Below, piece by piece: positions 17,266-44,343 of a stretch of 44,343 nucleotides of DNA. The DNA lies in the IMG/VR virus record IMGVR_UViG_3300005663_000088, positions 1 to 44,343 of that record; one strand, 5' to 3'. The stretch is from a virus. The notes beneath the pieces are model-generated. The model had not been told where the DNA came from and ran no database searches. It saw only the letters and a list, made by a program, of their open reading frames with translations. The stretch's first letter is position 1. Every line of letters begins with the position of its first letter. Made by a program: the position numbers and the translations under genes.

Positions 17266-17593
17266 CCCAGTTGACTACTACGCTGCCGCTATGTTGTACC
17301 TCGGAACGCTCCACATAGCCGCGCTGCTTAGCCTGCGTCTTTAGATAAAATATAATGGCCGTCGTGTCCTCGGAATCAATACGTTTCATCAACGCATTTT
17401 CCACGTAATCATGTCGTCTCTCGCGCGCCTCCTTGAAGGCCGCCGCAACCGTTGCATATTTATTCTGATAATTGTGAACTGTCTGTATCACGCACCCGAG
17501 TTGATCCGCCGTCTTGCTGACGAAACCGCGACTGTTTATGGCGGCGTCCGCCACTTCCTTTGCTGTATATCGATCTCCGTTTTTTTTAGGCAT
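17249..17593 (-). CDS. terS: Terminase small subunit
   Basis: A 114-aa protein with a helix-turn-helix near residues 10-45 (YTAKEVADAAINSRGFVSKTADQLGC), a helical oligomerisation region (AAAFKEARERRHDYVENALMKRI) and an acidic end (NWDDDND). It is coupled to the large subunit. It recognises the packaging start site; no obvious repeat or pac sequence was found in or near the gene. Confidence 0.85.
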   Translation of the reverse strand: MPKKNGDRYTAKEVADAAINSRGFVSKTADQLGCVIQTVHNYQNKYATVAAAFKEARERRHDYVENALMKRIDSEDTTAIIFYLKTQAKQRGYVERSEVQHSGSVVVNWDDDND

Positions 17594-18782
17594 CCAAAAT
17601 ATCCACCAATACGGGTACTATTCCCGTGTGATCAACAAATCTTTGGAGACAAACTCCGACATACGCTGGACTGATTTCGATTGCCCTGCACTTGCGGCCC
17701 AAATTCTGGCACGCGATGACACATGTTCCTGAACCAAGAAACCCATCGAATACAATGTCGCCCTTCTTGCTGCTGTTTGTGATTGCTCGTTCAAATAGTG
17801 CTGGCGGCTTCTGCGTCGGGTGCAATTCGTTGACCGATTCCCTGTCGATATCCCAAACGGTAATCTCGGTTGCATCACCCGCCCAATATGGTGCATGTCC
17901 TTGCAGGTGGCAGTACAGAAACGGTTCATGCTTTTGCTTGTATTGCTGAGACAACGCCCCGTACTGTGCCAGATTCTTATTCCAAATCAAGTTTCGCCGC
18001 ACTTGCCAGCCCGCTTGCACTACCGCTTGCACTACCGCTTGATCGCCGTCTGCGTACCAGAGATATAGCGCCACATGCTCAGCACAAAAAGATTGCCAGC
18101 AATCCAGCGCTGGATAGTAGAGCACAGGCAATTCGTCACCGCTCAACTTCTCGCGTGTCGTGGTTCCTCCGTCATAACTCACGCCATACGGTGGATCGGT
18201 CACAACACAATCAATGATTTCGCTCTCAAGCACCCTAGCCACAACATCCACATCCGTGCAATCGCCGCATATCAGCCTATGCTCACCGAGCTGCCACAAT
18301 TGCCCCGCCTGTACGCCCCACTTCTCGCGCAGTTCCTCAGCACGGTCTATCTGCGGTTCGGTATCTTCGCCCGCTTCCGTTTCCTCGCCATCCAGCCCCA
18401 GTTCCCAGTCCTCGAAGCCCCATTCGAGCAATTCCTCTACCTCGAATTCATTGGCCAGTAGCTCGAAATCCCATTCGCCAGTCGTGCCCTTATGCAGATA
18501 GATGACCAGCTGCTCGCGCTCCTTCTCGGTCAGGGTACGACTACTCTGCCGAGCATCTATCACATAGTCCGGACCGTGTTGCTGACGGAGCACGTTTAGC
18601 CGCTGATGGCCGTTGTATACCTCGTTGTCTGGCCCGATAGCAATAGTCTCTACCTGCCCGAACGTATCGAAGCTATCTGCTAGGCGCTGCGCCTGGTCTT
18701 TGCGAATGTGACGCGGGTTGCGCGGCCACGGTTGAAGGTCGCCTAACTGCACCTGTACGTTTGCCCAGGTGATATCAGCCAT
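17586..18782 (-). CDS. ParB-like nuclease domain fused to DNA adenine/cytosine-N4 methyltransferase
   Basis: The 398-aa product has an N-terminal ParB/Spo0J-type domain (residues 1-100, with the YNGHQRLNVL motif) and a methyltransferase C-terminus with DPPYG (196-200) before FLGSGT (348-353). This is the order of beta-class amino-methyltransferases. ParB-methylase fusions are common next to phage terminase genes and probably modify phage DNA at a specific site, protecting it from restriction or marking it for packaging. A 12-bp triplication gives a VVQAVVQA repeat near residue 250. Confidence 0.88.
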   Translation of the reverse strand: MADITWANVQVQLGDLQPWPRNPRHIRKDQAQRLADSFDTFGQVETIAIGPDNEVYNGHQRLNVLRQQHGPDYVIDARQSSRTLTEKEREQLVIYLHKGTTGEWDFELLANEFEVEELLEWGFEDWELGLDGEETEAGEDTEPQIDRAEELREKWGVQAGQLWQLGEHRLICGDCTDVDVVARVLESEIIDCVVTDPPYGVSYDGGTTTREKLSGDELPVLYYPALDCWQSFCAEHVALYLWYADGDQAVVQAVVQAGWQVRRNLIWNKNLAQYGALSQQYKQKHEPFLYCHLQGHAPYWAGDATEITVWDIDRESVNELHPTQKPPALFERAITNSSKKGDIVFDGFLGSGTCVIACQNLGRKCRAIEISPAYVGVCLQRFVDHTGIVPVLVDILDA

Positions 18783-20960: not shown

Positions 20961-21136
20961 GCCGGATACCCCGCCGGAATCACCTCCGGCAAATTATCGT
21001 ACTCGCCCGCTGCCAGCCTGACCCGCACCAATGTGCGTAGGCCGTGCCGCTTGGCCTTGATTTCTGCCTTATAGCCAGTGGCTCCGCTTCTGCGCACATA
21101 GCGACACTGGTGACATTTGCAGACGAGCACCTTCAC
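20957..21136 (-). CDS. Small cysteine-rich protein, possible zinc ribbon (59 aa)
   Basis: I place the start at the GTG at 21136, which overlaps the methylase stop (GTGA); longer versions would run far into the methylase gene. The product MKVLVCKCHQCRYVRRSG... has CxCxxC followed by a basic stretch, similar to small phage zinc-ribbon proteins. Function unknown. Confidence 0.6.
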   Translation of the reverse strand: MKVLVCKCHQCRYVRRSGATGYKAEIKAKRHGLRTLVRVRLAAGEYDNLPEVIPAGYPA

Positions 21137-21957
21137 AGTGTGCTGCCTGTCAGCAGCGTGGGTAGAGGCGTAACTTGTGGCGCAATTAGTGGCTCTTCCA
21201 TACAATATAAGTATTCTTCTGAATAATACTCCCATTTACTAACATTATTAGTATCTAAAAGAACGGGTTGCATTCGCGCCTCTGCGATTCTCTTTTGCGC
21301 TATGTTAAAATAATCCTCGCTTATTTCTATACCTATGAAGTTACGATCTGTCTGCATGCAAGCCACTCCCGTTGTGCCAGAACCCATAAAAGGATCGAGA
21401 ATGATGTCGCCCGGATTAGAACTTTTCTCAATGGCTTTCGCTATTATTTCTACTGGTTTTTCTGTCGGATGCACTTTTCCTGAACGTATGCAAGAAGTAA
21501 GATTATCTTTCCATACATCGCCACAACGTTTTCCATGCAATTCGTGTCTTCCCTTAGTTGCAAAATAAATGGATTCATGTTGCGGCCCGTAGGTTGTTTT
21601 TAGATCGCCAGCACCGAAGTGAGACTTTATCCAAATAATCCTATTCCGAACTACAAATCCCACTTTCTCAAGAGCGTGTTTCCAGACTGATTCTGTTCTC
21701 CAGTGAGAAAACATATAAATTGCTCCGCCATCTATTATTAAATCGAAAGCATTACTTAAGAAATCGGTATTTGGATAATTATCTCCACTTATTTTTCTGC
21801 CAACCCATTTTGTTTCCATATTCATTCTGCCACGGTTGGAACCATCGTGATATCCTATCCCATACGGCGGATCGGTTATGACCACATCCACGCTGCCGTC
21901 TGTCAATGTGGGCAGAATGTCTAGGCAATCACCGTGAAATAACGTTACAGAAGTCAT
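21133..21957 (-). CDS. DNA amino-methyltransferase (beta class)
   Basis: The 274-aa product has TDPPYG (28-33), SAM-binding DPFMGSGTTG (188-197), and HPTEKP (163-168). This is the order and length of beta-class N6-adenine or N4-cytosine methyltransferases. The gene region is visibly richer in A/T than the surrounding late genes, a sign of separate acquisition. It probably protects the phage DNA from a host restriction enzyme; the target site is unknown. Overlaps its neighbours by 4 nt at each end. Confidence 0.88.
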   Translation of the reverse strand: MTSVTLFHGDCLDILPTLTDGSVDVVITDPPYGIGYHDGSNRGRMNMETKWVGRKISGDNYPNTDFLSNAFDLIIDGGAIYMFSHWRTESVWKHALEKVGFVVRNRIIWIKSHFGAGDLKTTYGPQHESIYFATKGRHELHGKRCGDVWKDNLTSCIRSGKVHPTEKPVEIIAKAIEKSSNPGDIILDPFMGSGTTGVACMQTDRNFIGIEISEDYFNIAQKRIAEARMQPVLLDTNNVSKWEYYSEEYLYCMEEPLIAPQVTPLPTLLTGSTL

Positions 21958-23101: not shown

Positions 23102-23173
23102 TAACGGGGTCGGGAGTCGAACCCGACTAAACGAGTTTATGAGGCTCGTCGCAGCACCGGCCGCATCCCCGCT
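23102..23173 (-). tRNA. tRNA with anticodon CAT (Met or lysidine-dependent Ile)
   Basis: The minus strand folds as: acceptor AGCGGGG/CCCCGTT with one G-T pair; D stem GCGG/CTGC with a short loop containing GG; anticodon loop CTCATAA on a 4-bp CGAG/CTCG stem closed by a C-A mismatch; and a perfect T arm TCGGG-TTCGACT-CCCGA. CCA is not encoded; discriminator A is at 23102. The short D loop and mismatch are atypical but tolerable in a phage tRNA. It lies about 8 nt after the expected start site of the late promoter, so the tRNA would be the first element of the late transcript. Confidence 0.78.
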
Positions 23174-23272: not shown

Positions 23273-23301
23273 TTGACAAATGTATAGCAATATGATATAC
23301 T
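23273..23301 (+). promoter_or_regulatory. Strong sigma-70-type early promoter
   Basis: TTGACA (perfect, 23273-23278), a 17-bp spacer, and TATACT (23296-23301, 5 of 6). This is the best promoter in the window and fires into the early block. A GAAAATTTAAGG box lies 30 bp upstream and is duplicated before the second early promoter. Confidence 0.88.
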
Positions 23302-23445
23302 ATAGATAGTAAAGAGGAAGAGAGAGAGAGAAAGGGAAGGAGGAGAGGGAAAGAAAAACCAGAAGAAACCAAATAGCGGCCCGGAGCCACCGGGAGACGG
23401 CCCCAAGGGGCGAACCGGGGAAAACCCGCACAGAGCAAGAGAAAC
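23302..23445 (+). promoter_or_regulatory. Structured, purine-rich early leader
   Basis: After the promoter comes a stretch of almost pure A/G (about 23310-23352), then three consecutive hairpins: CCCGG/CCGGG (23380-23394), GCCCCAAGGGGC (23400-23411) and CGGG-GAAAA-CCCG (23416-23428). There is no coding potential. Together with the following hammerhead-like element it makes a leader of about 210 nt before the first early gene. Confidence 0.65.
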
Positions 23446-23500
23446 GGAAGTCAGCGATAACCTAATCGCTCCGATGATGGCCTGAATGGCCGAAACTTCC
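23446..23500 (+). ncRNA. Type III hammerhead-ribozyme-like element
   Basis: The order is that of a type III hammerhead. Stem III is GGAAGT/ACTTCC (23446-23451 with 23495-23500). The putative cleavage triplet GTC ends at 23452. Stem I is AGCGAT/ATCGCT with loop AACCTA (23453-23470). The core CCGATGA (23471-23477) follows, then stem II GGCC/GGCC with loop TGAAT (23479-23491), then GAAA (23492-23495). It differs from consensus in two places: C instead of U at core position 4, and an extra T (23478) before stem II. Cleavage would free the mRNA 62 nt before the first early start codon. The fold is very specific; activity is uncertain because of the core changes. Confidence 0.6.
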
Positions 23501-23514
23501 ACGGGAGACAGAGT

Positions 23515-23898
23515 ATGACACGGAACACAAAAGAATACTGGGAGCAGAGAGACAAGGAAATGCTAGAAGATATAGCTGTTGACAAGAAATATGTCAACAG
23601 CTATAGGGGACGAATACACGGCCTGAGTATCAAGCTGAGCGCCTGTCCCGACTGGGACAAAGACGCGCAGGCAATCATCCTTGGCGAAATGGCAAAACTC
23701 GAAGCGGAAGAGACCGCCACGGAAGAGACCGCATTTGTAGCAGAGTGGACGCCGGAAGTGACGGCGGTCCGACGAGCCGAATGGAATGCCTGGGTCAAAC
23801 AAGCACAACCGACCCCAGTGCAGATAACACGAAAACAGAACGAACAAGGATGGCGGCTAGAAGAGCTAAAGAAAGCCGTACAACACTATAACGATTGA
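23515..23898 (+). CDS. First early protein, unknown (127 aa)
   Basis: MTRNTKEYWEQRDKEMLEDIAVDKKYVNSYRGR... is a helical, highly charged protein without recognisable family. A GGGAG lies 8 nt upstream of the ATG, directly after the hammerhead-like fold. Its position as the first gene behind the strongest promoter suggests an early host-takeover or regulatory protein (inference). Codons about 19-31 contain a 13-bp perfect inverted repeat. Confidence 0.72.
   Translation: MTRNTKEYWEQRDKEMLEDIAVDKKYVNSYRGRIHGLSIKLSACPDWDKDAQAIILGEMAKLEAEETATEETAFVAEWTPEVTAVRRAEWNAWVKQAQPTPVQITRKQNEQGWRLEELKKAVQHYND
23571..23605 (+). promoter_or_regulatory. 13-bp perfect inverted repeat inside the first early gene
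   Basis: TATAGCTGTTGAC (23571-23583) and its exact complement (23593-23605) flank a 9-nt spacer. It can be an mRNA hairpin about 56 nt after the start codon or a double-stranded operator. The encoded residues (ValAspLysLysTyrValAsn) show no protein-level repeat that would explain it. Confidence 0.6.
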
Positions 23899-44179: not shown

Positions 44180-44343
44180 CAGTCAACCGTCCGATTTGGT
44201 GCGCCGGCCAATACTAGTTCCATATTCCATTGCAAGGCAGAAGTAACGTCGCCGCCAACATCAACTCGCTTAATGACTCCGCCCCCTTCCCAGAAATATC
44301 CAACGCGCACTGCTGTTGTTCGATCCCATATGTAGACCGAGGT
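44179..44343 (-). CDS. Tail-tube-like third paralog (C-terminal part; continued from left edge)
   Basis: This frame runs from the right edge to a TGA at 44181-44179. It is the continuation of the gene that leaves the left edge: residues YIWDRTTAVRVGYFWEGG occur in both because of the 73-base repeat. The unique part ends GDVTSALQWNMELVLAGAPNR..., which parallels the end of the 4645 tail-tube protein. The first two codons differ from the left copy owing to the mismatched last four bases. Confidence 0.8.
   Translation of the reverse strand, partial: TSVYIWDRTTAVRVGYFWEGGGVIKRVDVGGDVTSALQWNMELVLAGAPNRTVD
44267..44343. repeat. Terminal direct repeat (right copy)
   Basis: Bases 44267-44339 equal 1-73; 44340-44343 differ from 74-77. 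See the left copy. Closing the circle at this repeat gives a genome of about 44,266 bp. Confidence 0.85.

Follow-up and report, generated by a model that had tools for sequence, protein, structure and literature searches.

The question raised by this locus is whether a hammerhead-like fold with an altered core, standing in the leader of the first early gene of a virus, is a working ribozyme or the remains of one. The window, by which the whole analysed stretch of 44,343 nucleotides is meant (IMG/VR record IMGVR_UViG_3300005663_000088), carries its leftward genes between 22860 and 426, while its rightward genes start at 23515. An earlier note had recognised the fold before the first rightward gene and proposed either an active ribozyme with a variant core or, if inactive, a decayed or repurposed one. 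Comparison with related elements in other phages indicates that it is probably a variant type III hammerhead, which would cut after 23452 and so define where the early mRNA begins.

Architecture of the element and its leader

All parts of a type III hammerhead occur in order within 55 nt on the plus strand (23446-23500), and the coordinates and parts given in the earlier note are borne out by descriptor scan, by folding and by a covariance model built without the window. The 5' strand of stem III, GGAAGU (23446-23451), forms six base pairs with ACUUCC (23495-23500), closing with U 23451 and A 23495. The GUC triplet occupies 23450-23452, and from the position of its C17 (23452) in the motif cleavage is predicted between 23452 and 23453. 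Stem I (23453-23470) consists of six pairs between AGCGAU (23453-23458) and AUCGCU (23465-23470) around the loop AACCUA. It is followed by the core strand CCGAUGA (23471-23477), an extra U (U10, 23478) and stem II (23479-23491), in which two GGCC strands (23479-23482 and 23488-23491) form four pairs around the loop UGAAU. The core letters GAA (23492-23494) then run into the 3' strand of stem III, completing GAAA. As the note had described, the core strand matches CUGAUGA at six of seven positions, with C for U at position 4 (23472), and the extra U separates A9 from stem II.

Stem III is open and stems I and II are closed by loops, the arrangement of a type III three-way junction, and the cleavage triplet is of the NUH type with a U16.1-A15.1 pair. 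The consensus core, CUGANGA directly abutting stem II and then GAA(A), is departed from at C4 and at the U inserted after A9. Each of these deviations has been reported from viroid hammerheads, and the element is therefore filed here as a variant and not as a consensus hammerhead. An exact consensus hammerhead in another core register was ruled out, because no register removes both deviations. The three-way junction is both the minimum free energy and the centroid structure of the isolated 57-nt RNA (-20.7 kcal/mol; z -4.6), and none of 200 shuffles was equally stable. A relaxed type III descriptor, allowing one core mismatch and one optional inserted base with stems of at least 5/4/5, has a single match in the window, namely 23446-23500. 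The same descriptor gave 16 matches on 5224 dinucleotide shuffles, or 0.003 per window, a figure that covers one ribozyme type and not all motifs a reader could seek and hence is not proof.

A sigma-70-type promoter (TTGACA-17-TATACT with TG before the -10; 23273-23301, plus strand) is predicted upstream by consensus scan with 11 of 12 matches, placing the predicted transcription start near 23308 and giving a leader of ~205 nt. The element had been described as lying directly behind the strongest promoter; this is indeed the sole promoter of the region by consensus scan, but the element lies ~140 nt inside the leader. In between are a purine tract (23313-23352, plus strand), whose GGAAG copies could compete with stem III as judged from sequence and pair probabilities, and then three short GC-rich hairpins (23376-23432, plus strand) seen in the leader fold. 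One of these hairpins has a GAAAA pentaloop (CGGG-GAAAA-CCCG) and resembles a boxB hairpin. An antitermination leader of the nut/boxB or put type was considered and set aside, the hairpin being suggestive only. The position claimed just before the first start codon stands: ATG 23515 is 14 nt past the element end, with a Shine-Dalgarno-like GGGAG (23503-23507, plus strand) 7 nt 5' of it. The first early gene (23515-23898, plus strand) encodes 127 amino acids and gave no match to a recognised family in a family search.

Folding of longer transcripts changes the picture of stem III. Its pair probability, from secondary-structure energies alone, is 0.99 in the isolated element, 0.55 when the RNA starts at 23376, 0.002 when it starts at 23308, and 0.11 once the transcript extends to 23700. 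In the full leader the energy rules prefer the purine-tract copy GGAAG 23335-23339 paired with the stem III 3' strand; such leader folding ignores tertiary stabilisation and folding during transcription.

Some other features of the window were observed. A tRNA-like sequence on the minus strand (23103-23173) has the lysis genes on one side and the early promoter on the other; its anticodon loop (CUCAUAA) contains CAU, and its T arm is good. It matches the tRNA clan at 31.5 bits (E 9e-5), below gathering, and ARAGORN reported none. Two DNA methyltransferase genes are found among the late genes (17586-18782 and 21133-21957), one with an N-terminal ParB-like domain. The ends of the window form a near-perfect direct repeat (1-77 and 44267-44343), in which 73 nt from the left end reappear at 44267 and the match breaks down over the final few bases of the contig; this suggests a genome that is terminally redundant, or circular and almost closed.

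Recurrence and covariation in phages

The Rfam models Hammerhead_1, Hammerhead_3 and Hammerhead_II (RF00163, RF00008 and RF02276) represent the same ribozyme class as the window element. Rfam fails to recognise the element even at E 10, and with these three models neither it nor the tested members of the group described below reach the gathering score. Close relatives of the window were of little help. Eleven IMG/VR contigs share its terminase at 33-80% identity, having mainly packaging and structural genes in common with it and largely unrelated early regions. RF00008 and RF00163 found no hammerhead in these eleven, and the model built in this study found no element in them, barring one weak match at E 0.03. 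Searches with the first early, 239-aa early, Sak4-like and 756-aa proteins as queries produced no usable leader relatives.

A wider group was found by scanning viral contigs of IMG/VR with the pattern GATGATGGCC N3-8 GGCCGAAAC, in which the extra U and stem II are prescribed while position 4, stem I, stem III and the triplet are free. It matched 63 contigs. In 52 of the 67 viral placements it is accompanied by a hammerhead triplet, in nearly all cases GUC, by 5-8 bp of stem I and by at least 3 bp of stem III, features that it did not demand. Bacterial and archaeal genomes amounting to 257 Gb gave 89 placements of the same pattern, eight of them with stems; the remainder resemble coding sequence in which positions 3 and 4 hold random letters. 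These matches being mostly chance coding sequence, the viral set cannot be put down to background. When 400 genomes from a single bacterial family were surveyed, only one further genome with a weak match came up, which indicates that the group is viral rather than chromosomal. A first scan, for a C4-U core with free stems, had returned chance matches only and was later used as a null set: among its 123 database placements with the core strings in order none has all three stems, and the best summed stem length is 9 versus 16 for the window element. Dozens of phage elements thus have this architecture together with the extra U, whereas the packaging-gene relatives of the window lack the element.

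The element is present two or three times in some contigs (L159, L160, L179 and L183; L309 and L372 are one contig). The three hammerheads of L183 (3956-6344) are one with U4 and no insert, one with U4 and U10 and one with C4 and U10, with a loop I GUGU and an A-rich loop II; side by side they make up a natural series for the core dependency. Contigs L152 and L162 additionally carry an ordinary Rfam Hammerhead_II.

A covariance model (R1) was trained on an alignment of 42 other elements, not including that of the window. It recovers the window element at 47.6 bits (E 1.5e-11) over all 58 model positions, while the next-best match in the window has E 1.4. In the 42-member alignment 93% of cells pair, compared to 64% with shuffled partners and 34-45% when the alignment is slid by one to three columns, controls that do not fully remove relatedness among members. 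Thirteen of the 17 pairs vary on both sides; counted by cell, there are 198 such double changes, where shuffles give 60. Covariation is strong in stems I and III, and in stem I, which is 99.6% paired in the group, each of the six pairs shows changes on both sides. The picture of covariation was the same in another alignment, fitted to the model and comprising 69 distinct rows. The covariation and conservation in relatives on which the earlier note had made its proposal depend are therefore present in a recurrent phage group.

Contacts between hammerhead loops are important for the speed of cleavage. Loops I and II covary in the group as a kissing pair, a contact that formed no part of any search: at least 3 bp can form in 32 of 49 distinct loop pairs (for example UGCU/AGCA, UGCC/GGCA, UCC/GGA and AUGCC/GGCAU), compared to 11.7 in shuffles, with a maximum of 20 in 2000. 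Unlike most members, the window copy has loops, AACCUA and UGAAU, without Watson-Crick pairing. Its placement is that of the group, since 47 of 58 U-insert members end at most 60 nt before a Shine-Dalgarno-led start codon in the same direction (median 21 nt) and the window element ends 14 nt from its ATG. The sequence comparison thus points to a widespread and apparently uncatalogued group of phage hammerheads with an altered core.

The two core deviations, C4 and U10

Phage and prophage hammerheads are known to flank genes, and hammerhead cores match the consensus almost without exception (Perreault et al. 2011, PMC3088659). The insertions mentioned in the text of that paper lie after A6, at 13a or near C3, and none of them after A9. 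The window element resembles the type III hammerheads described there in stem order, GUC, C3, G5, A6, G8, A9 and GAAA, in its phage setting and, at the level of the group, in the pairing between the loops of stems I and II; it differs from them in C4 and the extra base after A9 (Perreault et al. 2011). One extra base at this place has been described for a viroid. The plus-strand hammerhead of chrysanthemum chlorotic mottle viroid (CChMVd) has an additional A10 between A9 and G10.1 (de la Pena and Flores 2001, per PMC3705267). At this viroid position A moderately lowers the rate, C or G is strongly detrimental and U raises the rate 3-4-fold (PMC3705267). The viroid element is a replication ribozyme with an extra A, whereas the window element combines an extra U with C4. 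C at position 4 is likewise known from a viroid: the U4C variant had considerably lower activity in vitro, yet enough in vivo (Ambros and Flores 1998, cited in PMC3088659). The combination of extra U and C4 was not found in the literature searched, which covered the viroid work through later papers.

Among distinct elements in the model alignments, all loci taken together, C4 occurs in 22 of 71 with an insert, the window element counted, versus 0 of 42 without (Fisher 1e-5). With a coarse clustering that lumps most members the counts become 8 of 30 and 1 of 25 (p 0.03), and the sole exception without insert is weak, its stem I having 4 bp. Many members being related and the clustered p being 0.03, the dependency of C4 on the inserted base is likely but not settled. 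The U that the earlier note had sought at the position of 23472 in relatives is present in other members of the group.

In a further scan of viral contigs the insertion point could be empty or hold any single base. Among the matches listed, placements with stems comprised 34 without insert, 16 with T, two with A, one with G and none with C. An inserted G instead of U follows A9 in three members (L190 3219, L207 2969 and L217 2808), the base reported to be detrimental in the viroid ribozyme (PMC3705267). The order of inserted bases, with U far above A and G and C nearly absent, fits the viroid kinetics and what would be expected from selection for cleavage. C4 being tied to the insert in the phage set, U10, which speeds a viroid hammerhead, may buffer the activity loss from C4.

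Readings of the element and their meaning

The preferred reading has the element transcribed within the early leader and folding once the 3' strand of stem III emerges. Self-cleavage of a hammerhead leaves 2',3'-cyclic phosphate and 5'-OH ends. A self-cut between 23452 and 23453 would release the upstream 145 nt; the early-operon mRNA would then carry a 5'-hydroxyl, open with the stem I hairpin and have its new end ~60 nt 5' of the first start codon. The likely benefit would be a defined, structured 5'-OH end resistant to 5'-end-dependent decay, and a ribosome-binding site free of upstream structure. We infer the cleavage, its rate and its effect on the mRNA from the architecture, the group and the placement described above. 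What speaks against this reading is that U4C alone considerably lowers activity in vitro (PMC3088659), that the loops of the window copy are unpaired, that stem III has a probability of 0.002 in the full leader and that the terminase relatives are without the element. Unpaired loops or competition by the purine tract could make this particular copy slow, regulated or dead.

Much of the same evidence can be read as decay, in which C4, the absence of the loop contact and competition from the leader abolished the cleavage of an active ancestor, and the element was kept only as a 5' stem-loop. We consider this unlikely. The slowing of cleavage by U4C in vitro (PMC3088659), the unpaired loops I and II and the competition of the purine tract with stem III would suit such a history, but all three stems are perfect and every core letter other than position 4 is intact. 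Furthermore, C4 together with U10 recurs in many intact phage elements and is thus not a private lesion. In such elements the triplet and the invariant core letters are retained, the stems covary and a start codon follows closely, which favours a variant core over the decayed or repurposed ribozyme that the earlier note had offered as the alternative. Quite improbable, in our estimation, is a regulated or slow ribozyme, in which GGAAG of the purine tract pairs with the stem III 3' strand and the leader acts as a switch, cutting being dependent on translation, transcription speed or a factor. The predicted drop in stem III probability from 0.99 to 0.002 with the tract included is what such a switch would show; yet it has no comparative support, a purine-rich tract contains GGAAG copies by composition alone, and the energy model ignores the tertiary fold of the ribozyme. 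That the three-way junction arose by chance in a structured leader rich in purines, without descent from a hammerhead, would agree with the failure of Rfam to recognise the element even at E 10 and with its absence from the terminase relatives. This explanation is already disfavoured and we give it very little credence, in view of the 0.003 matches expected per window, the E value of 1.5e-11 by an independent model and the rare core combination common to dozens of phage elements at the same position. A variant type III hammerhead remains the reading that we prefer.

Position 4 and the junction of A9 with stem II are hammerhead parts that are usually held fixed in searches. If phages possess a large branch in which U10 occurs and C4 is found only alongside it, the number of phage ribozymes in current catalogues is too low. 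That such an uncatalogued branch of phage-leader hammerheads exists, in which U10 frees core position 4, and that it combines a two-site dependency with a 5'-end-making device for phage genes, we regard as an evenly balanced proposition. The group would offer dozens of natural sequences for testing how one core change permits another, and the recurrent site just 5' of the ribosome-binding site would be a setting for testing what phages gain from such ribozymes. An altered core of this kind would ordinarily be read as broken, yet it recurs in many viruses.
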